From a bacterium (lineage in GTDB: Bacteria; Myxococcota_A; UBA9160; UBA6930): 64,000 nt of DNA. Below, piece by piece: positions 14,934 to 57,422 of this stretch. Where the stretch lies: positions 1 through 64,000 of the forward strand of contig JAAETT010000135.1 of the NCBI GenBank assembly GCA_024228115.1. The letters are read 5' to 3'. Below the pieces are notes generated by a model. It saw nothing but the letters and a program-made list of their open reading frames with translations, made no database searches and was not told the DNA's origin. A program made the position numbers and the translations under genes. How positions within the stretch are numbered: position 1 is the stretch's first letter; each line of letters starts with the position of its first letter.

Positions 14934-17894
14934 TCACGAATGCACCGACGCCTTGGACGGCGGCAGCGTACTTATCTCTTTCCCGGCGGGAAGCCGCTCC
15001 ACCTCAACGGGCGCTCCGCGTGGCGCGTGACTTGGAGAACCGTAGAACATCCGATAGTGGATGTGCCCGTATCCCCCTGCCATGTGGATCGGCTTCCAGG
15101 GAGCCTCGACCGGTTCCTGTTGGCCTTTCCAGCCCTTGAACTGATGGGGTTCCCAGGCGTGGTAGATGATCACCTCGCCCGGCTGCACCCCGGGCGCCAC
15201 CTTGGCGTTGGCCTCGAAGGCGCCTGCATCATTGAACACCCGCACCCCGTCACTGTCGGCGATTCCGCGCGGCTCGCAATCCGTGGGACTCAGGAAGCAG
15301 ACCGGCTCCCCTCGCTGGAGGCGCAGCATCAACTCGTGATCCCGCCAGATCGCGTGAATGCTCCAGCGGGTATGGCCCCCGTTGATGCGCAGCGGGTAGG
15401 GGCTTCCCGCACTCGGCGGATCCTTGTGAACGGGCAGGTGCTCACCGGCCTCCATGTACCAGGGGTGATCCAGATAGAACTGCTGGCGCCCGGTCAGCGT
15501 AGGCCAGGCCACCTTGTCCTCGACGAACCAGCGGTGGGGCCAGTGGGTGTCCTTCGGGTCGAAGTCGCTGCTCGTCGCATAGATCGGTGTGGGCCGTGCG
15601 GGCCCGGTGATCGGGACCGCGCCCAGACGTAGTGCCTCCTTCGCACGGACGCCTCCGACGCTCGGGCTCGCCTTGAAGATATCGTCCATCAGCTTGATCG
15701 GATCTTCGGGATCATGGGGATCGTAGTGCCGATCGGTGGTGTAGACCTCGTAGGCCTGGGTGAGATCGTGAGGACGATCGTGGAGTCCACGGACGCTCTT
15801 CACCCCGCGTTCGGTCGCACGGGCAGCCACGCGCTCGGAAAGAAGACCAAAGATCTCCCACTCAGACTTGGCTTCGCCCTCGGGCTCGGTGGCCTTGTCG
15901 GAGACCACGATGTAGGGCAGATACGTCTGGGCGTACTTGATGCCATGCTTCTCATAGTAAGCGGCTGCAGGCAGCACATAGTCGGCGAAGCGAGCGGTCG
16001 TGCTCATCCTGAAGTTCACGGCCACCGTGAGATCGAGCTTCGGCCACAGATGTTTGAGCGCATGCTGCGGCGCAGGCCAGCGCCGCAACGGGTTCGAGCC
16101 GGTGAAGATCAGCGCGCGCGGCTCCCGGTCCTCCGGCGGATGGATCCGGGTCCAGCCCTGGTCGATCGACTGGCGCACGTAGTCGTCGAAGGGCCGGGGC
16201 AGCGCGGGGTCGGCGAGATCCGGGCGCGACCACATCTCGCGGTAGCCGCCGTGGACGTAGAGGAACGGCATCAGCGGAGTATTGGGTGCCTTCTCGCTGT
16301 ACTCGGTGAAGATGTCCTCGTAGTCACGCGGGGTGAGTCCACGAATGGCTTTCGGCAGGATCTTCACGATGTCCAGGATTCCCGGAGGCGCCCCGCCCAT
16401 GCGATCGAGTCCATCCAGGCCCCACCAAGCCGCCACCCGCAGGCCGCCGCCGGGCTTTCCCTGGTTTCCCGTGAGCGCCATGAGCAGGATCATCGCCCGC
16501 TGGAAGAGATCGCTGTGGTGATGCTTGCAGGCACCCCACGATGCGAAGATCATCGCGGTCGGAGCATCTGCCAGATCTCGCGCGAAGCGTTGGATCAACG
16601 CGGGCGGGAGCCCGGTGATCTCGGCCGCTTTGTCCGGCGTGTATTCGGCCAACCGTTCTCGAAGTTGCTCGAAGACCGGCCGCACCTCCACCTCTTGTCC
16701 ATCAGCCAGGCGAACCTTGAAGCTCCCTGCCAGCGCCGGACGCAACTTGCCGAGCGCCAGCGAGCGCCCTCCTTCCCCGTCGCCGGCACAACCCGGAGCC
16801 ACGGCCAGTTTGCCCTTGGCTTCGTCCCAGACGTAGAAGCGGCTGTCGTCGCCACCCTTCTCGAGGTCCGCGTGACGCAGGAAGCGCCCATCGTCCCGCC
16901 GAATGAGCAACGGGAGATCCGTCTGCTCACGTACGTACTCCTCGTTGTATCGGTCCTCCGCAACGATGACCTGCGCCGCCGCGAGGCCGAGCGCAGCATC
17001 CGTCTCGGGCTTCGGGTTGATCCACAGGTCCGCGTGCACACTGGTCGCGTTGTAGTCCGGCGCGATCACCACGAGCTTGGCGCCCTTGTAGCGCGCCTCG
17101 TGCATGAAGTGGATCTCGGGGATACGCGTGTAGGCCGGGTTCCCCACCCAGACCACGATGTAGTCGGAGCGGAACCAATCGTCCGAGGTTCCCTCGCAGT
17201 TGTACATTCCCCAGGTCTGCACCGCGCCCATGGGCATGTCACCCACACCGGACCAGGAGTCCAGAATCGTGGCACCGACCGCCTCGGTGAAGCGAATCTC
17301 ACCGGCAGTCTCCGGGCCGTAGCCCGCGTTGGTGGTGCCGTGGTCGTAGATGATCGACTCGGTGCCCTGGTCGATCGCCGCATCGATCAACTTGTCCGAA
17401 ATCTCGTCCAGGGCCTGATCCCAGGAGATCCGTTTCCACTTGCCCTGCCCGCGCGGCCCGACCCGTTTGAGCGGATGGACCACGCGGGAACTGGCCAGTT
17501 GCAGATCCGTGTAGCAGGCGCCCTTCTGGCAACCGCGGGGATTGCCGTCGGGCACGTCGTCGCGCGGCGCCTCATAGACAGCATGCTGCTCCTCGCGCCA
17601 CGCAATTCCGTCCTTGACGAACACATCCCACGAGCACGCGGCGATGCAGTTGGCCCGAGTATGGGTCCCCTTGGCAACGCGGTCCCAGGTCCAACGCTCG
17701 CGCCAGACATCGGTGTAGTCGCCGTACTGAACGACATCGACGGGCGACCTCGGCTCGGGCGCAGGGCCCATCGGTAGTTCGCTGCCCTCTCGCTGACGCA
17801 AATGACAAAGGCCAAGACCCACGGCTGCCGCGCCGACTCCGGTCCCCACCATGAACTTCCGCCTCGACATCCCTCGGGAAACTGCATCACTCAT
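14934..17894 (-). CDS. Molybdopterin oxidoreductase alpha subunit, class II DMSO reductase family (divergent paralogue)
   Basis: This 986-residue Mo-bisMGD catalytic subunit begins with a twin-arginine signal (MSRRKFMVGTG plus a hydrophobic run), so it is exported folded. The FS0 cluster region is H78-x4-C83-x3-C87...C122, where ethylbenzene dehydrogenase and the two sister subunits have H-x3-C-x5-C. The Mo-ligand region reads VGDMPMGAVQTWG (Asp219), closer to the SerA/ClrA/DdhA/NarG pattern. The molybdopterin domains continue to an RINGGHTRWSIH segment and a VEVERLP tail. Its ATG overlaps the preceding alpha gene's stop by 4 bases. It probably uses the same beta, gamma and chaperone. The substrate is unknown. 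Confidence 0.9.
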   Translation of the reverse strand: MSDAVSRGMSRRKFMVGTGVGAAAVGLGLCHLRQREGSELPMGPAPEPRSPVDVVQYGDYTDVWRERWTWDRVAKGTHTRANCIAACSWDVFVKDGIAWREEQHAVYEAPRDDVPDGNPRGCQKGACYTDLQLASSRVVHPLKRVGPRGQGKWKRISWDQALDEISDKLIDAAIDQGTESIIYDHGTTNAGYGPETAGEIRFTEAVGATILDSWSGVGDMPMGAVQTWGMYNCEGTSDDWFRSDYIVVWVGNPAYTRIPEIHFMHEARYKGAKLVVIAPDYNATSVHADLWINPKPETDAALGLAAAQVIVAEDRYNEEYVREQTDLPLLIRRDDGRFLRHADLEKGGDDSRFYVWDEAKGKLAVAPGCAGDGEGGRSLALGKLRPALAGSFKVRLADGQEVEVRPVFEQLRERLAEYTPDKAAEITGLPPALIQRFARDLADAPTAMIFASWGACKHHHSDLFQRAMILLMALTGNQGKPGGGLRVAAWWGLDGLDRMGGAPPGILDIVKILPKAIRGLTPRDYEDIFTEYSEKAPNTPLMPFLYVHGGYREMWSRPDLADPALPRPFDDYVRQSIDQGWTRIHPPEDREPRALIFTGSNPLRRWPAPQHALKHLWPKLDLTVAVNFRMSTTARFADYVLPAAAYYEKHGIKYAQTYLPYIVVSDKATEPEGEAKSEWEIFGLLSERVAARATERGVKSVRGLHDRPHDLTQAYEVYTTDRHYDPHDPEDPIKLMDDIFKASPSVGGVRAKEALRLGAVPITGPARPTPIYATSSDFDPKDTHWPHRWFVEDKVAWPTLTGRQQFYLDHPWYMEAGEHLPVHKDPPSAGSPYPLRINGGHTRWSIHAIWRDHELMLRLQRGEPVCFLSPTDCEPRGIADSDGVRVFNDAGAFEANAKVAPGVQPGEVIIYHAWEPHQFKGWKGQQEPVEAPWKPIHMAGGYGHIHYRMFYGSPSHAPRGAPVEVERLPAGKEISTLPPSKASVHS

Positions 17895-20791
17895 AGGGTC
17901 TCGACCTCCACGCGCGTGTCGCGATCGGTGTGGCTCGGCTGCAAGGCGATTACCATGGGGCGCAAGTGGTACTGCCCTCCGGCGAGTTCGACCGGGTTGA
18001 GCGGGCTCGGAATCAGATTCTGGAAGCCCTTGCCGTTCTTGAACTGGAAGTTCTCCCACGCGTGGTACACGATCAGCTGCCCCTTGCGGACGCCCGGTGT
18101 CACCTTCGCCATGATCTGGAACTCGTCGAGATCGTTGAAGACGCGAACCTGCACCCCGTCGCGAATCCCTCGATCCACCGCGTCTTCGGTACCGATGATG
18201 ATCACCGGCTCGCCCCGCTGCTGCTGGAGCATCAGCTTGTCATCCCGCCAGCTCGAGTGGATGCTCCAACGGGCGTGGCCGCCGGTGAGCATCAGCGGGT
18301 AGTTCCCACCCGCCATCGGAGGATCCTTGTGCACCGGGAGTTCCTCGCCCATCTCGAGGTACAGCTCCTGGTCGAGGTAGAACTGCATGCGCCGTGAGAG
18401 CGTGAGATACGGCACCTTGTCGAATACGTGATCGGTCAGGGGCGTAATGGTGTCGTCAGCCGGGATCGACGTGGCGTTGCCGACGCTCCCAGGGCTCTTC
18501 CCGATTCCCTCGAAGCGCGCGAAACCCTTCTTCTTCAGCTCGGGCCATTTCAAGCCGCCGAGATTGGTGGCTTTGTCCAGCAGGTCCGCGCAGACCTCTT
18601 CGTCGTCGGTGGGGCCGAAGCGACCGCCCTGGGAGTACTTGTCGTAGAGGTTGTGGAGTGGCCTCTCGTCTCCCCGACGGTCGACGAAGCTCTCCGTTCC
18701 CCGGGCCTTCGCCCGCTCGTCGACGGCCTTGGCCAGGCGGGAGATGATCTCCCAATCGGACTTCGCCTCGTAGTAGGAAGTCGCCTTCTCGCCGGAGTGG
18801 ATGTAGGGCATCAGCGGAGTCGCCCACTTGTGCTCGCTTCGCTCGTACCAGCCGGCCGCCGGAAGCACGTAGTCGGACTGGAGCGCGGTCGACGTCATGC
18901 GGAAATCGAGCGTCACGACCGTGTGTAGCTTCGGCCAGAGGTGCTCCAGGATTCGCGGGTAGCTCCGGATCCTGCGAAGCGGGTTGCTCCCCATGACCAA
19001 CATCATCCTGGGATCGTTCCCGGGTTTCGGCCAGACGTACTGCCACTCCTTCTCCAGGGATTCCTCGAGCACCTCCCGCACCGGCCGCTTCAGGTAGGGA
19101 TCCCACTGGTCGAACTTCTCGCTCGCACCGAGCAGGCCCCCGTGCACGTACCAGAACATCGCCCCCGAGGTCATTCTTCCTTCGGAGATCACGCTGCGGC
19201 TGTGCTCGTGGACGATCATCTCCTCGCTGTAGCCGTCGAGCTTCATGCGCGCCGTATCGACGACCATGCCCCCGATGATCTTGAGGGCCGTCGTGTTCAT
19301 CATGTCCGAGAGCGAGAACATGTCGCGCACGAAGGGCTCGATGGAATCGTGATCGAGCCAGGGGAAGCCGACGAAGCCACTGCCCTTCTTGCCGTAGTTG
19401 CCCGTGAGTACGAAGACCAGGGCCTGCACGCGCTCCATCAGGTTGCCGTGGTAGTACTTCGCCATGTTGCTGGTGGTGACCATGGCCGCTGATTTTGCGT
19501 GTCCAAGCTGAAGGGCGAGCTTGCGGATGAGCGCAGGCGGCGTCCCGCAGATCTTCGAGGCGTCTTCCGGACGGAAGCCCGCGAGGCGCTCGCGAAACAG
19601 CGAGAAGACCGTCGAGACACCGACCCGACTGCCGTCCTTCAGCGTTACCTCGAAACGACCTTCCAGCTCCGGGTGGAGCCCATCGAGGCGCAGGCTCCTT
19701 CTCGGCGCAGCCACCGCTCCCCGCTCCCGGTCCCAGAGGTAGAGCTCTTCGTCGCTTCCGCTCTCCTCCAGATCGGCCGTGCGAAGCAGGCGGCGCGTAT
19801 CATCACGCACGAGCATCGGGAAATCGGTCTGCTCGACCAGGAAGTCCCGGTCGATCAATTCTTCCTCGACGAGCACCTGGGCGACGGAGAGACCGAGCGC
19901 CGCGTCGGTGCCGGGTTCCACGGGTACGAAGAAATCGGAGTGGATCGACGAGGCGCTGTAGTCGGGTGCGATGCAGACGACGCGGGCGCCCTTGTAGCGC
20001 GCCTCCGTTAGGTAGTGGGCATTGGGAATCTGGGTGTAGAGAGGATTGCTCCCCCAGATCAGGATCAGATCCGAGTAGAAGTAGTCGTCGGCCGATCGCT
20101 CGAAGGAGATCTTCCCGAAGGTCTCGGCCGCACCCCGATGCCCGTCACCGATCTCGGTGTTCATGTCCAGGTTGGTGGAGTCCATCAACACCGAGAGACG
20201 CTGATGCCCCGCGGTCATCGTGCCCTCGGTATACAGGGGACCCAACTCCCAGATCACGCGGTCCGAGCCGTCTTGCTCGATCGTGTCGAGCATGGCGTCC
20301 GCCACCTCATCGGTGGCCTGCTCCCAGGAGATCCGCTTCCACCGGCCGGATCCGCGCGGCCCCACGCGCTTCAGTGGATGGCGAACCCGCCCGGGGTCGT
20401 ACATGCGTTCGCTGAAGCAGGCCCCCTTCTGGCAGCCGCGGGGATTCGGGTCCGGCACGGAGGCGTTCGTCTGGGGATAGTCGGCCACCTGCTCTTCACG
20501 CCAGACCATTCCCTCCTTTACGTACACGTTCCAGGCGCAGTGGGCCTGGTACCAGCAGTTCACGAAGTGGCTGCTTCGGACCACCTTGTCCCAGCGCCAG
20601 CGTTCCTGGTAGACATCGCGCCAGTCGCCGTAGGGAGGCGGCGCCGGCGCACCGGGCGAACCGGCCGGGGCCGGGGCGTCGCCGGGTTTGAGGCAGCGAA
20701 GCCCCAGGGCGAGGCTCGCGGTACCCGCTGTACCGGCGATCAGGAACCGGCGCCGGCTGATGCCGGCCCGGTGTTTCAGCTCTTGACCCAT
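17891..20791 (-). CDS. Ethylbenzene/steroid C25 dehydrogenase-like molybdopterin alpha subunit
   Basis: The 966-residue catalytic subunit has a Tat signal (ISRRRFLIAGTAG at residues 11-23), an FS0 motif H75-x3-C79-x5-C85...C120 and a Mo-ligand Asp216 in EIGDGHRGA. Spacing and flanking sequence (WDKV, VYVKEGMVWREEQ, NPRGCQKG) closely follow the alpha subunit of Aromatoleum ethylbenzene dehydrogenase and its steroid C25 dehydrogenase relatives. The C-terminal domain has GGHARWSIHSSWR. These periplasmic enzymes hydroxylate benzylic or tertiary carbons with water and pass two electrons via FeS clusters to haem b. Its start overlaps the beta gene by 16 bases. The exact substrate cannot be read from sequence; a steroid side chain is favoured by context. 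Confidence 0.93.
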   Translation of the reverse strand: MGQELKHRAGISRRRFLIAGTAGTASLALGLRCLKPGDAPAPAGSPGAPAPPPYGDWRDVYQERWRWDKVVRSSHFVNCWYQAHCAWNVYVKEGMVWREEQVADYPQTNASVPDPNPRGCQKGACFSERMYDPGRVRHPLKRVGPRGSGRWKRISWEQATDEVADAMLDTIEQDGSDRVIWELGPLYTEGTMTAGHQRLSVLMDSTNLDMNTEIGDGHRGAAETFGKISFERSADDYFYSDLILIWGSNPLYTQIPNAHYLTEARYKGARVVCIAPDYSASSIHSDFFVPVEPGTDAALGLSVAQVLVEEELIDRDFLVEQTDFPMLVRDDTRRLLRTADLEESGSDEELYLWDRERGAVAAPRRSLRLDGLHPELEGRFEVTLKDGSRVGVSTVFSLFRERLAGFRPEDASKICGTPPALIRKLALQLGHAKSAAMVTTSNMAKYYHGNLMERVQALVFVLTGNYGKKGSGFVGFPWLDHDSIEPFVRDMFSLSDMMNTTALKIIGGMVVDTARMKLDGYSEEMIVHEHSRSVISEGRMTSGAMFWYVHGGLLGASEKFDQWDPYLKRPVREVLEESLEKEWQYVWPKPGNDPRMMLVMGSNPLRRIRSYPRILEHLWPKLHTVVTLDFRMTSTALQSDYVLPAAGWYERSEHKWATPLMPYIHSGEKATSYYEAKSDWEIISRLAKAVDERAKARGTESFVDRRGDERPLHNLYDKYSQGGRFGPTDDEEVCADLLDKATNLGGLKWPELKKKGFARFEGIGKSPGSVGNATSIPADDTITPLTDHVFDKVPYLTLSRRMQFYLDQELYLEMGEELPVHKDPPMAGGNYPLMLTGGHARWSIHSSWRDDKLMLQQQRGEPVIIIGTEDAVDRGIRDGVQVRVFNDLDEFQIMAKVTPGVRKGQLIVYHAWENFQFKNGKGFQNLIPSPLNPVELAGGQYHLRPMVIALQPSHTDRDTRVEVETL

Positions 20792-22494: not shown

Positions 22495-23142
22495 TCAGCG
22501 CGACGAATCCCCTCTCTTGGGGTTCCGTCGGGGAGTGCGTGGCTCGATCGCTTCACAGACGAACGCGGCGGCCTGGCAAATCCACTCTTCGAGCGGAAAC
22601 TCCGGGTCGTTCATCCAGTGCCCGAGCGCCACGTTCAACGCGCCAAGGGCCATCTCGGCCAGGAAGGTCGCCTCGAGATCCGTGCGCACCTCGCCGGCGG
22701 CCTGCCCCTCGCGGATCACCACGGCGAAGGGCTCGTGGACCGCGGATAGATAGGGAGCATCCTCTCCGGGGCGCGTGCGGCCCCGCATGAGTTCGAGCAG
22801 GACCTCCCGCGCGAGGCCACGGGCTTCGGAAACATCCGTGGCCACGGCCCCGGCGAAGCCCTGGATGCGCTCGGAGGCCGAGACGGGGCGCTTGAGCTGC
22901 TGATCGACGAGGGTCAGGAGGTGCTCGGAGACCTCGCTCGTCATCTCGGCGAGGACGGCGGACTTGTTGTCGAAGTGGTTGAAGAAGGTGGCCGGCGCGA
23001 CATCCGCCGTCTCGGCGATCTGCGCCACGGTCGTCGCGTCGTAGCCGTTCTTCAGGAAGAGCTGGCGCGCCGTCTCGTAGATATGGAGACGCAACTGGCG
23101 CTTCTTTCGCTCGCGGCGTCCTTCACTGGCGGTTTCCGACAC
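22495..23142 (-). CDS. TetR/AcrR family regulator heading the molybdenum dehydrogenase operon
   Basis: The 215-residue protein has a TetR DNA-binding domain at residues 15-60 (YETARQLFLKNGY, TVAQIAETADVAPATFFNHFDNKSAVL) and a helical sensor domain. It is the first gene of a six-gene minus-strand run and is followed after 15 bases by the gamma subunit gene, so it probably autoregulates the whole operon. The start is GTG 23142. The 118 bases upstream contain a direct repeat ACAATC-ACAATC at 23164-23175 but no clear palindrome. The ligand is probably the hydrocarbon/steroid substrate or a CoA derivative. Confidence 0.9.
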   Translation of the reverse strand: MSETASEGRRERKKRQLRLHIYETARQLFLKNGYDATTVAQIAETADVAPATFFNHFDNKSAVLAEMTSEVSEHLLTLVDQQLKRPVSASERIQGFAGAVATDVSEARGLAREVLLELMRGRTRPGEDAPYLSAVHEPFAVVIREGQAAGEVRTDLEATFLAEMALGALNVALGHWMNDPEFPLEEWICQAAAFVCEAIEPRTPRRNPKRGDSSR

Positions 23143-23260: not shown

Positions 23261-24526
23261 TCAGGGTTCATCCGCGGGCTCGATGGCGCCAGCCGCCACG
23301 GCCCGCTCGACCTCGTCTGGCGTCATGCCGAGCAGCGAGCCAAAGACGAAATCGTTGTCCTCGCCTACTCCGGCGCCTGCCCTTCCACTGTGCCCTGGCG
23401 TTCCTCTCAAGCCGAGCGGAATGCCGGTGGCCGTCACCACCCCCTTCGCCATGTGCTCGATCTGCTCGAAGAAGTCTCGGGCAGCAAGGTGCGCATCGTG
23501 CCGGGCCAGGTCCTCTACGTTCTGGACCACGCCGGCCGCAACTCCGGCCTCCTGGAGCGCAGTCATCAACTCGTAGTCCTTGCGCACGCGGGTGCGTGCG
23601 GCGATCACGTCGTCCAGCGCCTGGGCATGCTCCATCCGTGCGGCGAGCGACGCGAAGCGCGGCTCGCTCTGCCACTCCGGCTTGCCCAACACGCGGCAGA
23701 GGTGCTCCCATTCGGAGTCCGTCGCAACAGAGATGGCGCACCAGCGATCCTCGCCGCGACACGGGTAGCAGCCATGGGGCGCGGCACTCCGGGAGCGATT
23801 GCCCATCCTCTCCGGTTCCTGGCCCAGGGCGAGATACTCCATCATCACGTGACCGAAGCCGGCCACGGTCGCCTCGTATTGGGAGAGGTTGATGTACTGC
23901 CCTCCGCCCCCCCGACGCCGATGGTCGAGGGCGGCCAGCACGGCGACCAATCCATGCAGGGCGCTGATCGCGTCGGGGTACGCGTACTGGGTCAGCGTGC
24001 ACTCCCGGGAGGGGAATCCGGAGAGTCGGCTCATTCCCGACAGGGCCTCGATGTTAGGCCCCCAGGTCACGTAGCGTCTGCACGGGCCCGTATCGCCAAA
24101 GCCAGACGAACTGAGCATGACGAGCTCGCCATTCCCTTGCTGGAGTTCTTCATAGCCCAGCCCGAGCTTGTCCATGACACCTGCGCTGTAGTTCTCGATC
24201 GCGATGTCGCTGCGAGCTACGAGGCGCTTGGCCAATTCCACAGCGAGAGGCTGGCGGAGATCCAGGGTCACGAAGCGTTTCCCCGCGTTCCAATCGGTGA
24301 ACCAGGGCGACAGCCGCGGCTGGATGCCCAGCTCGCGATCCCAGGGCGGAACGTAGAGCCGCACCACGTCGGGACGTTTCCTGGATTCCACCCGGATCAC
24401 CTCGGCACCGCACCAGGCCAGGAATCGGCCGATCCACGGACCCGCCATGGCGGCGGAGAACTCGACGACGCGCAGACCTGCAAGCGCCTGGCGCGGCTCG
24501 TTCGAGGGTCGATCGCCCTGGGACAT
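23261..24526 (-). CDS. Family III CoA-transferase (CaiB/BaiF), catalytic Asp present
   Basis: The 421-residue CoA-transferase opens with LAGLRVVEFSAAMAGPWIGRFLAWCGAEVIRVE, the family's N-terminal CoA-binding segment. The catalytic aspartate position is occupied in YAYPDAISALHG, and the second domain has PHGCYPCRGEDRWCAISV. Members move CoA between carboxylates without ATP. Its ATG overlaps the stop of the upstream CoA-transferase gene by one base (TGATG), and that neighbour lacks the Asp, suggesting a heteromeric enzyme like benzylsuccinate CoA-transferase BbsEF. It lies just upstream of the molybdenum dehydrogenase operon but is separated by a 118-base gap. Confidence 0.9.
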   Translation of the reverse strand: MSQGDRPSNEPRQALAGLRVVEFSAAMAGPWIGRFLAWCGAEVIRVESRKRPDVVRLYVPPWDRELGIQPRLSPWFTDWNAGKRFVTLDLRQPLAVELAKRLVARSDIAIENYSAGVMDKLGLGYEELQQGNGELVMLSSSGFGDTGPCRRYVTWGPNIEALSGMSRLSGFPSRECTLTQYAYPDAISALHGLVAVLAALDHRRRGGGGQYINLSQYEATVAGFGHVMMEYLALGQEPERMGNRSRSAAPHGCYPCRGEDRWCAISVATDSEWEHLCRVLGKPEWQSEPRFASLAARMEHAQALDDVIAARTRVRKDYELMTALQEAGVAAGVVQNVEDLARHDAHLAARDFFEQIEHMAKGVVTATGIPLGLRGTPGHSGRAGAGVGEDNDFVFGSLLGMTPDEVERAVAAGAIEPADEP

Positions 24527-25749
24527 CAGATCACGCCTCCGGCCTGGAGCGTTCGCAACTTCGCCTCGGAGAGGCCGAGTTCGTCGCAGTAGACCTCCCG
24601 GTTGTGCTGCCCCGGAGACGGGGCTGGGCGGTAGATGCGCCACGGCGTCTCGGAGTGCCGATAGGGCGCGCCCGGATAGGTAAGACGACCCACGGTTGGA
24701 TGGTCGACCTCCTCGAAGAACCCCCGCGAGGCGAGATGGGGATCCTTCGCCACCGCAGCGGCGGAATGAACGGGCGTAACGGCGATGTGCCGGTTCTGTC
24801 CCTCGCGGTAGGCCTCCTCGACGCGGAGTCGCGACATCAGATCCGAAATGAACAAATCCAGGAACTCGCGGTAGGGCAACCGATTCGAAGAAGGCCCCTC
24901 GAACATCGGATCGAGGATCTCCTCGTTGCCGGTCACCTCGTGGACCCACTCCGCCAGGGCGGTCCAGTGCAGCGGTCGATTCACCATCAGGTAGATGCTT
25001 CCGTCCCTGCACGGATAGGCACCGGAGGGGACCGAGGCGAACAGGCCGGTTCCCTGGCGCTTGGAGACGATCCCGTCGTCGAGCCACTTCCCGACGCCGC
25101 AAATGTGCGAGACCGAGGCGACCACCTCCTGTACGGAGATGTCGACGTGCTGCCCCTCGCCGCGCCCCGAACTAGCGAGCAGGGCAATCAAGCTGCTGGC
25201 CGCCGCCACAGTGGCCGCCGCCACGTGCGCCTGGCTGCCAGCCATGCGCACCGGCGGATCTGCCTCCTCTCCGGTGACATGCATCGCCCCGCCCTGGGCG
25301 CTGGCCACGAGATCCGAGGAGCGGAAGCCCCGATGCGGGCCCGTCTGCCCGAACCCGGAGATCGAAGTGAGGACCAGGCGGGCATTCGCCTGGCGGAGGT
25401 TCTCATAGCCCAGCCCCAGACCCTCGAGGGTGCCCGGCGCGAGGGTCTCGATGACGAGATCCGCGCTGCTCGCGAGCTTCTCGAAGAGCGCACGTCCCTC
25501 CGGCTGCTGCAGGTCCAGCGCCACACCGCGTTTGCTGGTGTTCATGTAGAGGAAGGAGAGGCTCTCCTCGCGACCGGACCCGGCCTGGATCCGGGGAGGC
25601 GTGCCTCGACTCGGGTCGCCGCCGGGGGGCTCCAACTTGATGACGTCAGCGCCCAGATCCGCCAGCAGCTTTCCGCAGTAGGCGCCCTCTTCGCCGGCGA
25701 GTTCCAGGACTCGCCGCCCGCTCAGCGCGCCGTTGGGCCCGCTCGGCAT
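24526..25749 (-). CDS. Family III CoA-transferase homologue lacking the catalytic Asp
   Basis: The 407-residue CaiB/BaiF-family protein begins LSGRRVLELAGEEGAYCGKLLADLGADVIKLEPPGGD. At the catalytic position the sequence reads MAGSQAHVAAATVAA, giving His where active members have Asp. It is translationally coupled to the Asp-containing paralogue at 23261, so the two may form a heterodimer with one catalytic chain. The ATG at 25749 is preceded by GGGGGAA; a start 14 codons upstream is possible. It is divergent from the TetR gene at 25835, sharing an 85-base intergenic region that contains the operator described there. Confidence 0.87.
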   Translation of the reverse strand: MPSGPNGALSGRRVLELAGEEGAYCGKLLADLGADVIKLEPPGGDPSRGTPPRIQAGSGREESLSFLYMNTSKRGVALDLQQPEGRALFEKLASSADLVIETLAPGTLEGLGLGYENLRQANARLVLTSISGFGQTGPHRGFRSSDLVASAQGGAMHVTGEEADPPVRMAGSQAHVAAATVAAASSLIALLASSGRGEGQHVDISVQEVVASVSHICGVGKWLDDGIVSKRQGTGLFASVPSGAYPCRDGSIYLMVNRPLHWTALAEWVHEVTGNEEILDPMFEGPSSNRLPYREFLDLFISDLMSRLRVEEAYREGQNRHIAVTPVHSAAAVAKDPHLASRGFFEEVDHPTVGRLTYPGAPYRHSETPWRIYRPAPSPGQHNREVYCDELGLSEAKLRTLQAGGVI

Positions 25750-25800
25750 GAATTCCCCCTGACCTTCGAAGCTCCTCGTCTCGCCGCACAACGACCGGCC

Positions 25801-25831
25801 TTGACGTATCCTAACTCAAGAGTAAGCTACT
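25801..25831 (+). promoter_or_regulatory. Promoter with embedded inverted-repeat operator, shared with 57392-57422
   Basis: TTGACG (-35) is followed by a 16-base spacer and TAAGCT (-10). Between and across them lies CTAACTC, two bases (AA), then GAGTAAGCTACT at 25811-25831. ACTC and GAGT form the core dyad. The same arrangement, 19 of 21 bases identical, occurs on the minus strand at 57392-57412 with its own TTGAC box at the same distance. The -10 ends only 6 bases before the TetR ATG. Confidence 0.65.
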
Positions 25832-25834
25832 AGC

Positions 25835-26503
25835 ATGAGAGTCAGCTCCCCCGCTGCTCCCCGCCGCACCGCCCAGGTCACCGAAGAGACCCGGGGTCTG
25901 ATCTTGGCGGCAGCGGAGGCCGAGTTCGCCGGCAGCGGTTTTGCGGCAGCGCGCCTGGCGGATATCGCGGAGCGCGTCGGGATCACCCGCGCGGCCATCA
26001 TCTACCACTTCCGCGACAAGAGAGCACTCTACGACGCCGTCCTCGAGGCGGCCTTCGGGCCCCTCACCGAGCAGATCCAGGCGTCCGTGAGCGTGCCAGG
26101 CTCCAACGCCGAGCGGATCGAGCGGGTCATCCAGGCGTGGTTCGAGTGCGCTGCAGAGCGCCCCACGTTGGGTCGGCTGTTCATACGGGAGGTCGCTTCG
26201 GCGGAGGATACGCTGCGCCCCGAGGTCGATCGCCTGGCGGCGCCCATGTACGCGGCCTTCCTGGACGCCATCGAGCAGGGGCAGCGCGACGGCGAGTTCC
26301 GCCCGATCAGCGCCGTCCATGTCGCGAACATCCTTTCGGGCGCCGCGATCTGGCTGACCAGCGGAGCGCACCTGACAGGTGGACAAGAAACCGAACCCCC
26401 CGCCGAACGCCTCGCGCAATATCGGGACGAGTTGGCAGGCGTCGCACGTCACCTGCTGGGAATCCAGCCGCATGACGGGCAAGGCGAAAACGATCACGAG
26501 TGA
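25835..26503 (+). CDS. TetR/AcrR family regulator, candidate island-wide repressor
   Basis: The 222-residue TetR protein has its helix-turn-helix at about residues 24-66 (ILAAAEAEFAGSGFAAARLADIAERVGITRAAIIYHFRDKRALY). Its promoter overlaps a dyad operator that recurs before the coxG/CoA-transferase operon at 57355. No ribosome binding site precedes the ATG and the -10 is 6 bases away, so the mRNA is probably leaderless. It heads the plus-strand catabolic run (KstD-like, LLM, etfBA, thiolase) and is divergent from the CoA-transferase pair. Inference: it binds the shared operator and responds to a pathway CoA ester or steroid. Confidence 0.9.
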   Translation: MRVSSPAAPRRTAQVTEETRGLILAAAEAEFAGSGFAAARLADIAERVGITRAAIIYHFRDKRALYDAVLEAAFGPLTEQIQASVSVPGSNAERIERVIQAWFECAAERPTLGRLFIREVASAEDTLRPEVDRLAAPMYAAFLDAIEQGQRDGEFRPISAVHVANILSGAAIWLTSGAHLTGGQETEPPAERLAQYRDELAGVARHLLGIQPHDGQGENDHE

Positions 26504-26553
26504 TCCGCTCCCGGGGCGGCGAGCTCCGGAAGGGACATGGGACGAACGAGGTC

Positions 26554-28260
26554 ATGATGGAAGCCAGATCGACGAGCTTTGATCACACTGTCGACGTCCT
26601 GGTCATCGGCTCAGGTGCCGGGGCCATGACGGCGGCTCTGCGGGCTCACGACCAGGGGGCCAACGCGCTCCTGATCGAGAAGACCGACCGCTACGGCGGC
26701 TCTTCCGCGATGTCGTCCTGCCTGCTGTGGATCCCGAACAACCACCTGATGGCGGACGCCGGTGTTCCGGATACCCGAGAGGAGGCCTGGAGCTACCTGA
26801 AGGGCACGACCGCCGGTGCTGTTTCCGACGATCGACTGAACGCCTACCTGGACAATGGCCCCGAAGCACTCAAGTACCTCGTCGATCGAACGCGCGCGAA
26901 GTTCATCTCCCTGCCCGAATACTGCGACTACTATCCCCGGGTTCCGGGTAGCAAGCCGGGCGGGCGCTCGGTCGAACCGGAGCACTTCGACGCCCGCCAG
27001 CTGGGCGAAGATTTCGTCAACATGCGCAACCAGAACCCGCAGATGCAGATCTTGGGACGTCTCGGGATGACGGCCGTCGAGGCGCGCATGACCATGACCG
27101 GACAGCCGGGCGGAATGATGCTCTTCGCGAAGCTCATCCTCAAGTACCTCACGGACTTCCGCTGGCGCCTGCGATCTCCGCGTGACCGGAATCCGTCGGG
27201 TGGCAACGCGCTGATCGGGATGCTTCGCCTCTCGCTGATGGATCGGGACATCCCGCTCTGGCTGAAGACGCCCGCACGCGAGCTGATCGTCGAAGATGGA
27301 CGCGTGACAGGCGTCGTTGTGGAAAAGGACGGCCAGCAGACCCGCATCGGAGCGACCCGCGGCGTGATCCTCGGCGCGGGTGGCTTCGAGGGCAACCAGG
27401 CCATGCGCGAGAAGTACCTGCCGGGTCCCACCCGCAAGGAGTGGACCTGCGGCAACCCGCATAACACCGGGGACGCGATCGAGATGGGCAGGAAGATTGG
27501 CGCCGGAGTCGACCTGATGGACGACGCCTGGTGGGGGCCGACCACCGTCGTCCCTGGCGAGGATCTGGCGCGTTTTCTCGTGATCGAGAAGTCCCTGCCC
27601 GGAAGCATCCTGGTGGACAAGGCGGGCCGCCGGTTCACGAACGAAGCGGCCCCCTACCTCGACATCGTGAATGCCATGTACGAAAAGGACAGCCCCGAAT
27701 CCCCCTGCGTACCGGCCTATTTCGTGTTCGACGCCACCTATCGGAAGAACTACATCTGTGGCCCGCTCTTGCAGGGCTCCGCACACCCGGACTGGATGGC
27801 ACGCAAGCTCTTCGAAAATGGCTACCTCAAGAAGGCAAAGACGCTCGATGATCTCGCAGCGCAGCTCGGTGTGAACGCCGAGGGGCTCAAGGAGTCCGTG
27901 GCGAGGAACAACGAGTACGCCCGCACGGGGGAGGATCCCGAGTTCGGCCGCGGCGAAACGATCTACGACCGCTACTACGGCGATGCCAAGGTCGAGCCGA
28001 ACCCGTGCATCGGTCCGATCGAGAAAGGCCCCTTCTACGCGATCGAAGCCTTCCCCGGCGAACTCGGCACGAAGGGTGGACTCACGGTCGACGCTCGGGC
28101 ACGCGTGCTCACCGAGGCGGGGGACGTGATCCCGGGGCTCTACGCGATTGGCAACTGCTCGTCATCCATGATGGGCCGCAGCTATCCCGGAGCTGGTGCC
28201 ACGATCGGGCCGGCGACCACCTTCGGATACATCGCCGCCACCGATGCGACGGAGGACTGA
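26554..28260 (+). CDS. kstD: 3-ketosteroid delta1-dehydrogenase-like FAD oxidoreductase
   Basis: The 568-residue flavoprotein has a GSGAGAMTAALRAHDQG dinucleotide-binding motif (residues 19-35) ending in IEK, then GGSSAMSSCLLWIPNN, characteristic of KstD. Near the C-terminus lie KGPFYAIEAFPGELGTKGG (candidate catalytic Tyr495) and GNCSSSMMGRSYPGAGATIGPATTFGY, the KstD-type closing FAD motif. KstD enzymes introduce the C1-C2 double bond into 3-ketosteroid ring A. Other FAD dehydrogenases of the fumarate reductase superfamily are an alternative, but length and motifs favour KstD. The start is one of two adjacent ATGs at 26554/26557. The next gene begins two bases after its stop. Confidence 0.85.
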   Translation: MMEARSTSFDHTVDVLVIGSGAGAMTAALRAHDQGANALLIEKTDRYGGSSAMSSCLLWIPNNHLMADAGVPDTREEAWSYLKGTTAGAVSDDRLNAYLDNGPEALKYLVDRTRAKFISLPEYCDYYPRVPGSKPGGRSVEPEHFDARQLGEDFVNMRNQNPQMQILGRLGMTAVEARMTMTGQPGGMMLFAKLILKYLTDFRWRLRSPRDRNPSGGNALIGMLRLSLMDRDIPLWLKTPARELIVEDGRVTGVVVEKDGQQTRIGATRGVILGAGGFEGNQAMREKYLPGPTRKEWTCGNPHNTGDAIEMGRKIGAGVDLMDDAWWGPTTVVPGEDLARFLVIEKSLPGSILVDKAGRRFTNEAAPYLDIVNAMYEKDSPESPCVPAYFVFDATYRKNYICGPLLQGSAHPDWMARKLFENGYLKKAKTLDDLAAQLGVNAEGLKESVARNNEYARTGEDPEFGRGETIYDRYYGDAKVEPNPCIGPIEKGPFYAIEAFPGELGTKGGLTVDARARVLTEAGDVIPGLYAIGNCSSSMMGRSYPGAGATIGPATTFGYIAATDATED

Positions 28261-28262
28261 GC

Positions 28263-29330
28263 GTGGCCTTCCGCGTCCAGACCGTGATTCTGGGGCCCGA
28301 CACCGACCAGTACGCCGGTGATGGCCAGGGGATGACCGACATCCGGGGCATCGCGGCAGCGGCCCGCCGATGCGAAGAACTGGGCTTCGACGGCTTGACT
28401 GCGCCGGAGGCCGGCCATGACCCTTTTCTTCCGTTGGTCGTCGCGGCGGAGCACACCGAGAACATCCAACTCGGCACCAACGTCGCCATCGCCTTTCCGC
28501 GCAGCCCCATGGTGACGGCACAGCTCGCCTGGGACCTGCAGAACCTCTCCGGCGGGCGCTTCCAACTCGGGCTGGGCACCCAGGTGAAGGGCCACGTCGA
28601 GCGGCGCTACGCGTCGAACTGGACCGAGGCCCCCGGCCCTCGTCTACGCGAGTACCTGCTCTGCGTGAAGGCGATGTTCGAGACTTTCCAGACCGGCGCC
28701 AAACCCGATTTCGAGGGCGAGCATTACCGCTTCTCGCTGATGAACCCCTTCTTCAACCCGGGCCCGATCGAGCATCCAAACGTCCCGATCCACCTGGCCG
28801 CCGTCAATCCCTACATGGCTCGCCTCGCGGGTGAATTGGGCGACGGCCTGCGTCTTCACCCCATTGCCACCTTCCGCTACACGCGGGAGGTCGTCCTGCC
28901 GGCGATCGAGGACGGTGCCAGGAAAGCCGGTCGTAAGCCTTCCGAGATCGACCTGATCGGGGCGCCCTTCCTTGCGATCGCCAACGACGCGGCCGGCGTC
29001 GAGGCGGCCAAGCAGGCACTCAAGCAACACATCGCCTTCTATGCCTCCACGCCTACCTACCACGCCGTACTCGAATTCCACGGCTGGGAGGGCGTCGGCC
29101 AGGAGCTCCACCGGCTGTCCCGAGCTGGCGGGTGGAAGGAAATGCCGAACCAGATCACCGACGAAATGCTCGAGGAGTGGGCCATCGTTGGCACGCGCGA
29201 CGAGTTGGTGCCCCGGATTCGAGAGCGCTGCTCCGACATCTTCTCGACCGTCCTGCTGGATCTCTCGGCCGAGCTGCGGCGGGATGAGGCCTGGCTCAAA
29301 GAAACCATCGCGGCACTGCATCAGGCGTAG
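28263..29330 (+). CDS. LLM class (luciferase-like) F420-type oxidoreductase
   Basis: The 355-residue protein has the bacterial luciferase-like TIM-barrel pattern: LGFDGLTAPEAGHDPFLPLVVAAEHT, IQLGTNVAIAFPRSPMVTA, LSGGRFQLGLGTQVKGH and NPYMARLAGELGDGLRLHP. It fits the F420-dependent subgroup better than FMN monooxygenases, although the cofactor cannot be proven from sequence. It starts at GTG 28263, two bases after the KstD-like gene, so they are co-translated. A role in hydride transfer to or from a ring or side-chain intermediate is plausible; the substrate is unknown. Confidence 0.87.
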   Translation: MAFRVQTVILGPDTDQYAGDGQGMTDIRGIAAAARRCEELGFDGLTAPEAGHDPFLPLVVAAEHTENIQLGTNVAIAFPRSPMVTAQLAWDLQNLSGGRFQLGLGTQVKGHVERRYASNWTEAPGPRLREYLLCVKAMFETFQTGAKPDFEGEHYRFSLMNPFFNPGPIEHPNVPIHLAAVNPYMARLAGELGDGLRLHPIATFRYTREVVLPAIEDGARKAGRKPSEIDLIGAPFLAIANDAAGVEAAKQALKQHIAFYASTPTYHAVLEFHGWEGVGQELHRLSRAGGWKEMPNQITDEMLEEWAIVGTRDELVPRIRERCSDIFSTVLLDLSAELRRDEAWLKETIAALHQA

Positions 29331-29364
29331 ACGGCGTGACATCGCAACAGAAAAGGCGAACACC

Positions 29365-30189
29365 ATGACATCCGAGGATCACCTCCTCTTCGAAGTCGAC
29401 GAGGGCGTCGGCATCGTCACCTTGAATCGTCCGGAGCGCTTGAACGCCATCAGCTGGGAGCTGGGCCGGGATCTCGTCGAACTCTTCCGTGAGGTGCGGC
29501 ATCGCGACGACGTGCGGGTCCTGGTGCTGACCGGCGCCGGCAGAGCCTTCTCATCCGGCGGCGACGCAGAGTGGATCAGCGGCGGATCGGAGGATCGCGG
29601 CCTGCCGGGGCTCTCGGATCTTCCGCTGGAGCGCTATCAGCGCAAGACGCCCGCCGGCCCGCTGGGAGAATTCACCCGTATGATCGTCGAAGTAGACAAG
29701 CCGGTGATCGCGGCTTGCTCGGGCCCTGTCATTGGCGCCGGCCTCGCCTTCGCTCTCGCCTGCGACCGCCGCATCGCGGACACCACCACACGCTGGTGCG
29801 CTGCCATGGTTCGGCTCGGCTTCGCCCCGGACTGCGGCATCACCTACTTCCTTCCGCGCGTCACGCGATTGTCCACGGCGCTCATGATGGTCGAGACAGG
29901 CCGGAGCCTGAAGGCCGAAGAGGCGCACCGCGAAGGCCTCATCGACGAGCTCGTCGAGGAGGGACAGGCGCTACCGAAGGCCCTCGAGTACGCGAAGACG
30001 CTCGCCGAAGGGCCGAGCGTCGCCATCGACCTCGCGCGCCGCTTCATCCACAAGTCCCTCAACTCGACACTGGACGAGATGATCGACTACGAGGCCGTGG
30101 CCGCGACCATGTCCGCGCACACAGCCGACGCGCGGGAGGGCACGAGTGCCTTTCTGGAGAAGCGCAAGGCGAAATTCAAGGGCTACTAG
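29365..30189 (+). CDS. Enoyl-CoA hydratase/isomerase family protein
   Basis: This 274-residue crotonase has the oxyanion-hole segments GAGRAFSSGGDAEWI (about residue 60) and CSGPVIGAGLAFALACDRRI (about residue 117). It ends REGTSAFLEKRKAKFKGY, typical of the family. The glutamates of a classical hydratase are not both obvious: the second segment runs LGFAPDCGITYFL, which may indicate an isomerase or hydrolase variant. It lies 34 bases after the LLM gene in the plus-strand run and probably acts on a beta-oxidation intermediate. Confidence 0.9.
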   Translation: MTSEDHLLFEVDEGVGIVTLNRPERLNAISWELGRDLVELFREVRHRDDVRVLVLTGAGRAFSSGGDAEWISGGSEDRGLPGLSDLPLERYQRKTPAGPLGEFTRMIVEVDKPVIAACSGPVIGAGLAFALACDRRIADTTTRWCAAMVRLGFAPDCGITYFLPRVTRLSTALMMVETGRSLKAEEAHREGLIDELVEEGQALPKALEYAKTLAEGPSVAIDLARRFIHKSLNSTLDEMIDYEAVAATMSAHTADAREGTSAFLEKRKAKFKGY

Positions 30190-30216: not shown

Positions 30217-30540
30217 ATGGAGAGGACGAGAACATTGGCGATGCCTACGAGTCACGGCGTAGAACCGTCGCTTGCGGGGGCACGTGCGGAATGCGACGGC
30301 GGCGGAATGATTCCGGGCACGCGCTACGCCGGCCGGGAGGAATTCGCAGGAAGCCTCACCGGCGAGTACGTCGACCACGGCGATCCGCCCTGGCGTTGGT
30401 ATCTCCTGACCGACCTCTCACACAAGCCGCCCGACTACCCGGCGGATGCGGTGTGGTGCGAATCCGAAAGCCTGTTTCTAATCGACGCGGAGGGCAGGAC
30501 CCTGCCGGACTGCCTCCCGGGCGGACAAAGGAAGAAGTGA
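30217..30540 (+). CDS. Small hypothetical protein between enoyl-CoA hydratase and etfB
   Basis: The 107-codon frame ends one base before the etfB ATG. The product has a Trp-rich centre (GDPPWRWYLLTDLSHKPPDYP, VWCESESLF) and a basic tail. I do not recognise a family and see no signal peptide or membrane span. Tight packing against etfB and the same direction favour a real gene. Against it are a weak ribosome binding site and competing start codons (ATG 30241). If not real, 30190-30541 is a 352-base gap with no other gene. Confidence 0.4.
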   Translation: MERTRTLAMPTSHGVEPSLAGARAECDGGGMIPGTRYAGREEFAGSLTGEYVDHGDPPWRWYLLTDLSHKPPDYPADAVWCESESLFLIDAEGRTLPDCLPGGQRKK

Positions 30541-30541
30541 G

Positions 30542-31357
30542 ATGCGAATCGTCGTCTGCGTGAAGGAAGTACTCGACCCCGATGCGGTCAACAACTACGC
30601 CCTGGCCGGGCGCCTCGAGATCGGTGAGGACGGAAAGTCCCTGACCCAGACCACGATTCCGCGTCTGATGAACGGTTTCGACGAGCAAGCACTGGAGGCC
30701 GCGCTCCGACTGCGCGACGCCGGCGCCGAATGTCGCATCGGTGCGGTCTCGGCAGGCCCGGATTCCACGACCATCCTGAAGCACGCCGCAGCCCTTGGGG
30801 TCGACGAGATCGCCTCCCTCCCGATGGAAGAGCCCTCGCCCGACTACCATGTCGTCGCAGCGTTGCTGGCCGCCTATGTTCGCTCGAGCGGCGATGCGGA
30901 CCTCGTCCTTTGCGGAAGACAGGCCTCCGACGATGATCAGGGCGTGGTACCCGCTCTGATCTGCGAAGCCCTCGGGATGCCGCTCGTGACCAACGCGCGT
31001 GCAATCGAGCTCGCACCGGCGTCCGACGAACCCACGCTTCGGATCACCCGGGTCACCCCGGACGGTGACGAAGTCGTCGAGGTGTCCTGCCCGGCCGTCG
31101 TCACCGTGAGCAACGAGCTCGGAGAGCCGCGCTACCCGACGGCGGCCAAGAAGATGGCGGCGCGGCGGATGAAGCCCGAGATCATCACAGCGGAAGGTCT
31201 CTCCCTCTCCCCGGAGGCGCTCCAACCCCGGGTCGCGGCCCAGCGCCAGTTCGTCCCGACCGTCTCTGGCGACTGCGAGTTCCTGCCGGGCGAGACACCA
31301 GCCGCGCTGGCCGAAGCCCTGATCGCGCGCCTGCGACAGGAGAGCGTGATCAGCTGA
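30542..31357 (+). CDS. etfB: Electron transfer flavoprotein beta subunit
   Basis: The 271-residue ETF beta subunit starts MRIVVCVKEVLDPDAV and contains the diagnostic GRQASDDDQGVVPALICEALG, followed by PAVVTVSNELGEPRYPT. Together with EtfA it carries electrons from acyl-CoA dehydrogenases and similar flavoenzymes to a membrane quinone reductase. The ribosome binding site (AGGAAG) lies inside the end of the preceding small frame. EtfA follows after a 52-base gap. The membrane iron-sulfur protein at 57563 is a likely electron acceptor. Confidence 0.95.
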   Translation: MRIVVCVKEVLDPDAVNNYALAGRLEIGEDGKSLTQTTIPRLMNGFDEQALEAALRLRDAGAECRIGAVSAGPDSTTILKHAAALGVDEIASLPMEEPSPDYHVVAALLAAYVRSSGDADLVLCGRQASDDDQGVVPALICEALGMPLVTNARAIELAPASDEPTLRITRVTPDGDEVVEVSCPAVVTVSNELGEPRYPTAAKKMAARRMKPEIITAEGLSLSPEALQPRVAAQRQFVPTVSGDCEFLPGETPAALAEALIARLRQESVIS

Positions 31358-31409: not shown

Positions 31410-32393
31410 ATGGAAACGAAACCGGTTGTGGTGTGCATGTGGAACCTGGGCCAGGGAGGACTCCCTGTAGGTACAGAGGAAGCGCTCACCCTTGGCCGAA
31501 AGGTGGCAAGCGCCACAGGAGCAAGGCTCCACTTGCTGGTGCTCGGTCCGCTCCCCGAGGAATGCCTGGAGACGGCCGGACGCTTCGGCGCGGACGACGT
31601 CGACCAGATCGAAGACGCGGCGCTCGAAGGTTTCGCACCGGACGCCTATGTGGATGCCCTCGCTGGCTACTGCCAGCAGGAGTCGCCGGCGCTCATACTC
31701 TTCAGCCAGGCGGCAGACACCCGTCTCGTGGCCCCGCGACTGGCCGGACGCGTGGGCGCCGGCGTCTTGATGAACGGTGTCGACATCTCCGTCGGCGAAA
31801 GCGGAGGCCTCCAGGCCACCGCCTCGGCCTACGGTGGCGATACCCAGATGGTCTACGAGCTGTCCGGCGCAGCGTCGTATGTGGTGGCGCTCAGCGCCAA
31901 TGCGCTGCTTCCCGAGCCTGCCGAGGGGGGGCCGACCCAGCCAGGGTGTCGATCGATCCAGGTCGACCTCAGCGGAGTCAACGAGCGCATCCGCGTGATC
32001 GAGCAGGCCCGAACCGAAGGCCCACGCCTCGAGGACGCCGACATCATCGTCTCCGGCGGGCGCGGCCTGGGCGGGCCCGAGAACTACAAGTTGATCGAGC
32101 AACTCGCCGAGGCGCTCGGCGGGCTGGCCGGCGCATCTCGGCCCATCGTGGACGAGGGCTGGGTGGACTCCTCCCAGCAGGTGGGCCTGACTGGCAAGAT
32201 CACCCGGCCGGCTCTGTATCTCGCCGCCGGCATCTCGGGTGCGAGCCAGCACATGGCCGGATGCTCGGCCGCCAAGACGATCGTTGCGATCAACAAGGAT
32301 CCGGACGCTGCGATCTTCCGCTACGCCAGCTACGGCCTCGTGGGCGATTGCTTGGAGATCCTCCCCGAGCTGATCCGGGCGGCAAGGCAATGA
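31410..32393 (+). CDS. etfA: Electron transfer flavoprotein alpha subunit
   Basis: The 327-residue ETF alpha subunit has the C-terminal FAD domain intact: IVSGGRGLGGPENYKLIEQLAEALGG, VDEGWVDSSQQVGLTGK, YLAAGISGASQHMAGC and IVAINKDPDAAIFRYASYGLVGD. This is the signature order of the family. The N-terminal domain (VVVCMWNLGQGGLPVGTEEAL) is also recognisable. It overlaps the DUF35 gene by 4 bases (ATGA). It partners EtfB as the soluble electron carrier for dehydrogenations encoded in the island. Confidence 0.96.
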   Translation: METKPVVVCMWNLGQGGLPVGTEEALTLGRKVASATGARLHLLVLGPLPEECLETAGRFGADDVDQIEDAALEGFAPDAYVDALAGYCQQESPALILFSQAADTRLVAPRLAGRVGAGVLMNGVDISVGESGGLQATASAYGGDTQMVYELSGAASYVVALSANALLPEPAEGGPTQPGCRSIQVDLSGVNERIRVIEQARTEGPRLEDADIIVSGGRGLGGPENYKLIEQLAEALGGLAGASRPIVDEGWVDSSQQVGLTGKITRPALYLAAGISGASQHMAGCSAAKTIVAINKDPDAAIFRYASYGLVGDCLEILPELIRAARQ

Positions 32394-44660: not shown

Positions 44661-44661
44661 C

Positions 44662-56643: not shown

Positions 56644-56773
56644 GCCAACCTCGCCGGGGCTAGCCCGGCCGGGCCGCGATCGGTTCCTACGCCGGATCCC
56701 TGAACACCACCCCATCCGACGGGGGCCGCCGCCTCACAAGCAACCCGGTAGCGGGGCATCGCTCGTCCCTCTC

Positions 56774-57355
56774 TCAGCCCGTCTGCCGACCGAAGAGCCG
56801 GCGGAAGAAGCGTGCAACGGGTGCCCAGATGACGCCAAGGATCACGCGCAGCAGGGGAACAGAATCGTCCGCGACCGGGGCCTCGGGCGAAGCGTCCGAC
56901 GCGGTCACTTCCAGCGCCTGCCGCGTCCGGGTAACGAATTGCCCGAAGAGTTGGCTCGAGACGCCCTGGATCATTCCGCGTCCGACCTGCATCACGCGAC
57001 CGGTAAGGTCCACTTCGGCCGAGGTGACCACTTCGGTCTGCCCGTCCGGGAGGGTCGACAGCTCGGCCGTGACCGTGCCCTTGGCGGTGCCGCCGCCGGT
57101 CTCTCGCCCCTCGGCCACCATGCACACGCGCCGTGCCTGTTCATCGACATCGCTGAGATGCACCCGCCCACGGTACTTGGTGGTGATCGCGCCGAGCTTG
57201 ATCTTCACCGCGCCATTGAAGGTGCGTTCATCGACCACTTCCTCCAGCACGGCGCCCGGCATGCAGGTGACGACGCGGTGCGGGTCCAGCAGGAATTGCC
57301 AGACGGTCTCGATGGGAACCGAGACCTGGAAGGTCTCCTCGATCTGGATCGACAT
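56774..57355 (-). CDS. CoxG family SRPBCC protein
   Basis: The 193-residue protein has a SRPBCC/CoxG domain in residues 1-150: FQVSVPIETVWQFLLDPHRVVTCMPGAVLEE, FNGAVKIKLGAITTKYRGRVHL and GGGTAKGTVTAEL. A variable C-terminal tail follows with a hydrophobic, basic end (LLRVILGVIWAPVARFFRRLFG) that could anchor it at the membrane. CoxG recruits or matures molybdenum hydroxylases, so it probably serves the coxMSL-type complex at 48093-51949 although it lies in a different operon. Its promoter carries the operator shared with the TetR gene at 25835. Confidence 0.9.
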   Translation of the reverse strand: MSIQIEETFQVSVPIETVWQFLLDPHRVVTCMPGAVLEEVVDERTFNGAVKIKLGAITTKYRGRVHLSDVDEQARRVCMVAEGRETGGGTAKGTVTAELSTLPDGQTEVVTSAEVDLTGRVMQVGRGMIQGVSSQLFGQFVTRTRQALEVTASDASPEAPVADDSVPLLRVILGVIWAPVARFFRRLFGRQTG

Positions 57356-57391
57356 GGGAGGTACTGTCGCCCCGCTATTAACTCACAAGAA

Positions 57392-57422
57392 AGTAGCTTA
57401 CTCGAGAGTTAGCACGAGTCAA
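57392..57422 (-). promoter_or_regulatory. Promoter with embedded operator for the coxG/CoA-transferase operon
   Basis: Read on the minus strand: TTGACT (-35, 57422-57417), a 16-base spacer and TAAGCT (-10, 57400-57395). The span CTAACTC, TC, GAGTAAGCTACT covers 57412-57392 and differs from the copy at 25811-25831 in only two central bases. The -10 ends 39 bases before the coxG ATG. A partial further half-site, TTAACTC, lies at 57378-57384. Confidence 0.65.

Follow-up and report, generated by a model that had tools for sequence, protein, structure and literature searches.

A probable palindromic operator in the promoters of a TetR-family gene and a distant coxG operon within a steroid-type degradation cluster

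Two promoters that lie 32 kb apart in the genome of an uncultured 'Deltaproteobacteria' member contain nearly the same palindrome, and the question raised by this locus is whether one repressor acts on both. The window (the whole 64-kb stretch of DNA analyzed) is a steroid-type degradation cluster that includes ethylbenzene-dehydrogenase-type molybdenum enzymes, thiolases, a ChsH2-like OB protein, and a CO-dehydrogenase-like hydroxylase. Breakdown of sterols or other isoprenoids without oxygenases is a reasonable reading of these gene families (compare PMC6016249 and PMC11061730). Three molybdopterin oxidoreductase alpha subunits are encoded (14934-18059, 17891-20791, 41736-44801 (-)), two of which closely match the alpha subunit of DMSO-reductase type II/ethylbenzene dehydrogenase. 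An 810-aa protein (35184-37616, +) carries a tandem pair of class III CoA-transferase domains.

The operator pair and its promoters

The extended O1 site upstream of the tetR1 gene (25811-25831, +; CTAACTCAAGAGTAAGCTACT) and that upstream of coxG (57392-57412, -; CTAACTCTCGAGTAAGCTACT) were identical at 19 of 21 positions, in agreement with the initial annotation of this DNA. The window holds exactly two copies of the 21-mer CTAACTC-NN-GAGTAAGCTACT. No third copy with up to three mismatches was found in the window, where none was expected from 100 dinucleotide shuffles, and these shuffles rule out a chance origin of the pair, which the initial annotation had already judged very improbable. The initial annotation had also proposed a genome-wide search, with a dispersed repeat as the outcome that would speak against a regulon. 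Pattern searches of the whole genome (6,414,368 bases, or 6.41 Mb, in 700 contigs) detected the same two copies and no third with up to three mismatches. Exact matches to the bare 16-bp palindrome (CTNACTCNNGAGTNAG) occurred genome-wide at the same two places only, and matches with one mismatch were as frequent as those of a reversed-pattern control, which is the background level. The palindrome is therefore not a dispersed repeat.

As previously described, both copies are set identically between a TTGAC and a TAAGCT box, and the arrangement in each promoter is TTGAC(G/T), 16 bp and TAAGCT (Table 1). O1 is not fully symmetric, having GAGTAAG instead of GAGTTAG; the asymmetry puts an A at position 2 of the -10 box, so that some bases belong to the operator and the promoter alike. 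With three to four of six consensus bases, the -10 box is weak, and a consensus promoter/terminator scan, which was uninformative, missed the tetR1 promoter. The distance from the end of the -10 box to the ATG was 6 nt in eight of nine TetR1 orthologues and 8 nt in G089, a genome from another family of the class. This spacing predicts a leaderless tetR1 mRNA, a layout that the initial annotation overlooked, and the leader of the coxG mRNA is predicted to be about 33 nt.

Table 1. Positions of the regulatory elements and genes of the two operons in the window
Feature	Position	Strand	Sequence or evidence
-35 box, tetR promoter	25801..25806	+	TTGACG; TTGAC in 9/9 TetR orthologue promoters
O1 (tetR)	25811..25826	+	CTAACTC-AA-GAGTAAG; inside -35/-10 spacer; kept in 9 orthologues
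-10 box, tetR promoter	25823..25828	+	TAAGCT; overlaps O1 right arm; TAAGAT in some relatives
Putative weak O2 (tetR)	25830..25845	+	CTAGCAT-GA-GAGTCAG; rank 5, score 5.5; over start codon
TetR1, TetR_N + TetR_C_24/29; predicted leaderless mRNA	25835..26503	+	Pfam; orthologues; AlphaFold pLDDT 85
KstD-like 3-ketosteroid Delta1-dehydrogenase	26500..28260	+	Overlaps tetR stop; PDB 7p18, E 4e-172
F420-type LLM oxidoreductase	28290..29330 (start approximate)	+	TIGR03617 above cut-off
Enoyl-CoA hydratase/isomerase (ECH)	29350..30189 (start approximate)	+	Pfam ECH_1
107-aa protein (orf107), between ECH and ETF beta	30217..30540	+	74-85% identity in relatives
ETF beta	30542-31357	+	Pfam ETF
ETF alpha	31410-32393	+	Pfam ETF_alpha
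Class III CoA-transferases (three), operon with coxG	55423-56715, 54215-55426, 52989-54260	-	Pfam CoA_transf_3
CoxG family protein	56774..57355	-	Pfam COXG, E 1e-18
Putative O2 (coxG)	57378..57393	-	CTTTCTT-GT-GAGTTAA; rank 3, score 11.5; over predicted start site
-10 box, coxG promoter	57395..57400	-	TAAGCT; sequence
O1 (coxG)	57397..57412	-	CTAACTC-TC-GAGTAAG; kept in G001, G002, G003, G017, G021, G089
-35 box, coxG promoter	57417..57422	-	TTGACT; sequence
FeS/CCG membrane oxidoreductase (ETF:quinone-oxidoreductase-like)	57563-59632	+	Divergent to coxG

The closest solved relative of the KstD-like protein was 7p18, a 3-oxosteroid 1-dehydrogenase, and its score against NCBIfam PRK12844 was below the cut-off. 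The 107-aa protein had no match in Pfam or NCBIfam.

Conservation of the sites and the protein that would bind them

A pattern scan that covered 14 family-level and 80 order-level genomes detected the operator pair in G000-G003, G017 and G021. In the five relatives, which belong to three genera, one site precedes the tetR-kstD-LLM-ECH-ETF operon and the other precedes the coxG operon. A single contig carries the two sites in G002, at a distance of 46 kb; G001, G003, G017 and G021 each have them on separate contigs. In G089, CTGACTC-CC-GAGTAAG precedes a TetR with 53% identity, and CTGACTC-AT-GAGTAAG, 33.5 kb away, precedes a CoxG with 49% identity. Distant relatives thus keep both copies at the same two genes, which makes it very probable that one repressor serves both. 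The consensus for O1 is CTnACTC-NN-GAGTAAG.

The similarity between the tetR1 and coxG promoters spans the boxes, O1 and a second palindrome, O2 (see below), at equal offsets, as it would in a copied promoter, and the coxG site could accordingly be a recent duplicate or translocated tetR1 promoter, or a shared repeat without regulatory meaning. This reading is very improbable, since each copy keeps its own center in the six order-level genomes carrying the pair (AA at tetR1; TC or TT at coxG), which indicates that the copies are old and have been held separately. Moreover, the flanks have drifted and the operators have not, and the genome holds no further copies of the operator. Among the nine TetR promoters, O1 and the boxes were nearly invariant and the 29 columns upstream varied.

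The operator at coxG co-occurs with TetR1. CoxG matches were detected in 35 order-level genomes, 29 of them without the site pair; these counts are not independent events because the compared genomes share ancestry. The CoxG homologs of the 29 genomes had 43-62% identity, the genome-wide pattern scan found no operator at their coxG genes, and a TetR1 ortholog was absent from 28 of them. The exception, G015, encodes a TetR with 48-52% identity whose operator is diverged (TTTACTC-AC-GAGTATG), and no operator was found at the coxG of this genome. G004, which belongs to the same genus as the window, had no TetR1 ortholog, coxG match or site. G019 has the tetR1 site only, and its acetone-carboxylase-like genes fall on a 6.4-kb contig fragment in which coxG had no match. 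The TetR1 gene of G019 (L007; G019:C74:3970-4560) seems interrupted, with one TGA and one TAG in the match; its operator is intact, and the interruption could be an assembly error.

The order of coxG and the CoA-transferase genes was kept in G001, G002, G003, G017 and G021. In G089, coxG has genes for hydantoinase A/B, acetone-carboxylase gamma and CoA-transferase after it. In G017 and G089, hydantoinase A/B and acetone-carboxylase-gamma-like genes lie between coxG and the CoA-transferases, and the same arrangement was assigned to G021 from a gamma-subunit match and the gap size (L138:11789-16699, L139:3138-8035 and L185:6798-11722 in the three genomes). No acetone-carboxylase gamma gene was found anywhere in G000-G003.

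TetR1 has an N-terminal TetR helix-turn-helix and a helical C-terminal ligand domain (PF00440, 1.7e-12; PF17932, 2e-9; PF17938, 6e-7), and its AlphaFold model is all-helical. The fold matches of the model were TetR proteins, including structures of DarR, FasR, RutR, KstR2 and FadR. Several of these sense acyl-CoA or nucleotide ligands; fold matches to a model do not identify the ligand of TetR1. The recognition helix, GITRAA[IV]IYH, was invariant among the TetRs with an O1-type operator. Paralogs of the subfamily with a GIRRAS[IL][VF]Y helix carry CTACCTGCGCGCAGGTAG, and Binatota-type relatives with a GV[KR]APSLLHH helix carry CTAACG-NN-CGTTAG. A TetR paralog in the same genome (at C428) has a single site of its own, of the CTACCTGC type. 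Many TetR paralogs of the class have a near-perfect CTACCTGCGCGCAGGTAG, or a variant, right before the start codon (upstream regions L083-L103 and L148), and the changes in their recognition helices match those in their operators. No plasmid copies of TetR1 were found.

The O1 sites could instead be bound by another TetR, for example TetR2 (22495-23142, -), whose gene belongs to the same cluster, at a distance of 2.7 kb, and heads an ethylbenzene-dehydrogenase-like operon; the tetR1 operon would then be a target. We regard this as improbable. G001 and G021 have both sites, yet neither has a close TetR2 ortholog (best match, 32% identity). O1 occupies the autoregulatory position of TetR1, the -35/-10 spacer, in all nine orthologs, in keeping with the TetR-family trait of a palindrome in the regulator's own promoter, and paralogs of the same subfamily also have their palindromes in the autoregulatory position.

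A second palindrome downstream of O1

The initial annotation overlooked O2. A matrix made from eight O1 sequences, rendered symmetric, was run over the whole window; it included the O1 sites of the window itself and no O2 sequence. The two O1 sites ranked first, with scores of 27.6 and 27.1. The O2 candidates (Table 1) were exactly 19 bp downstream of O1 at both tetR1 and coxG; their scores alone are within the range of random sequence, and the evidence for O2 is thus its fixed position and conservation. In all 14 order-level promoters (8 tetR1 and 6 coxG), the next-best palindrome within 60 bp was at +19. O2 was the best second match within 60 bp in eight of the nine tetR1 orthologs and was kept in all six order-level coxG promoters, being near-perfect in G017 (CTAACACCTGAGTTAG). 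A matrix scan within 60 bp found no O2 in G089, so O2 is not essential across the class. The score was higher at coxG than at tetR1 in each of the six genomes with both, and the tetR1 O2 covers codons 1-4.

These patterns would suit a lineage-wide two-dimer switch, with O1 in the spacer and O2 placed over the transcription start, 19 bp further downstream, to which we give an even chance. If this is true, the better match of O2 at coxG would mean tight control of coxG and leakier control of the repressor's own leaderless operon, and the tetR1 O2 would constrain the initial codons of the repressor.

Extent of the regulon and comparison with known systems

We consider it highly likely, from sequence comparison, that TetR1 is an autorepressor with a two-operon regulon. 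A TetR1 dimer would bind O1 in the -35/-10 spacer, and a second dimer, binding more weakly or cooperatively, would occupy O2 over the transcription start. Bound TetR1 would block RNA polymerase at both promoters and repress its own tetR-kstD-LLM-ECH-orf107-ETF operon, predicted to be leaderless, and the remote coxG-CoA-transferase operon. Release by a steroid-like pathway intermediate, plausibly a CoA thioester or ketosteroid, would switch on the dehydrogenase/ETF and CoxG/CoA-transferase modules together.

The regulon proposed in the initial annotation stands in its core, the shared operator of these two operons; its additional members are not supported, as the genome has only two operators. 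Control by TetR1 of both divergent neighbors, a CoA-transferase (24526-25750, -) and the FeS/CCG membrane oxidoreductase, would be an addition to the two-operon regulon, and a doubtful one. Each operator is located between divergent genes, in a gap of 84 bp at tetR1 and 207 bp at coxG. The CoA-transferase, which had been named as a possible member and keeps that status here, is the divergent neighbor of tetR1, and so adjoins its operator, in all six order-level genomes with the upstream side mapped. However, the gap between the two genes contains almost no conserved sequence besides O1 and the boxes, no conserved promoter directed toward the CoA-transferase was found there, and no CoA-transferase homolog was mapped upstream of tetR1 in G089. 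Membership of the ETF:quinone oxidoreductase-like gene was unsupported, its homolog being parted from the operator by xdhC-mocA in G017 and by mocA in G021. In these two genomes, the left arm of the coxG operator and the -35 box extend over the end of mocA, covering its final codons and its stop (L138:11154-11174; L139:2491-2511). The idea that the genus of the window retains a remnant of mocA upstream of coxG was unsupported, only a few residues being alike.

The regulator and its operators add a new case to a familiar type of control. KstR2 of mycobacteria is a TetR-family autorepressor of a small local steroid-catabolism regulon and uses a 14-bp palindrome with a 2-bp center (AnCAAGnnCTTGnT) at a few genomic sites, all near the regulator (PMC3068626). 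TetR1 shares the 2-bp center and would resemble it in having a small steroid regulon, and the KstR2 structure 4w97 was one of those that the TetR1 model matched in fold. However, identity is about 21%, the target genes differ, and the TetR1 sites have CTnACTCnnGAGTAAG rather than the KstR2 motif. TetR1 also scored far below the NCBIfam cut-off for KstR (31.1 vs. 280 bits) and for AcuR (19.5 vs. 247 bits). AcuR of Rhodobacter sphaeroides is a TetR-family autorepressor whose operon has a leaderless mRNA that starts at the acuR ATG (PMC3017554). An inverted repeat overlaps the promoter in both systems, and the predicted leaderless, autoregulated layout of tetR1 would resemble that of acuR; the AcuR operator is TAATAGAC-n6-GTCTATTA, and TetR1 would additionally control a second, remote operon. 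EdcR of Caenibius tardaugens represses an estradiol gene cluster through a palindrome that overlaps the -10 box of several promoters (PMC8700777). The steroid cluster and the palindromes over -10 boxes are alike in TetR1; the EdcR operator is TnnCnnTACnAnTnGTAnnGnnA, and the EdcR gene itself has the weaker site. The best fold matches of the TetR1 model were DarR structures (8sua and 8svd; about 24% identity), which are c-di-AMP/cAMP complexes and not steroid-linked. The title of entry 8svd reports DNA binding by a dimer of dimers, which sets a precedent for a promoter occupied by two dimers.

One repressor thus very probably controls itself and one remote operon. For a lineage known from metagenomes only, this provides a regulator and operator that are sharply defined, together with a regulon of two operons. 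The subfamily pairs different recognition helices with different palindromes, making it useful for studies of TetR specificity. Shared control would tie the KstD/ETF module to the CoxG/CoA-transferase module, which includes acetone-carboxylase-like genes in relatives, and so points to one pathway; both modules may be tested through a single repressor in a heterologous host.
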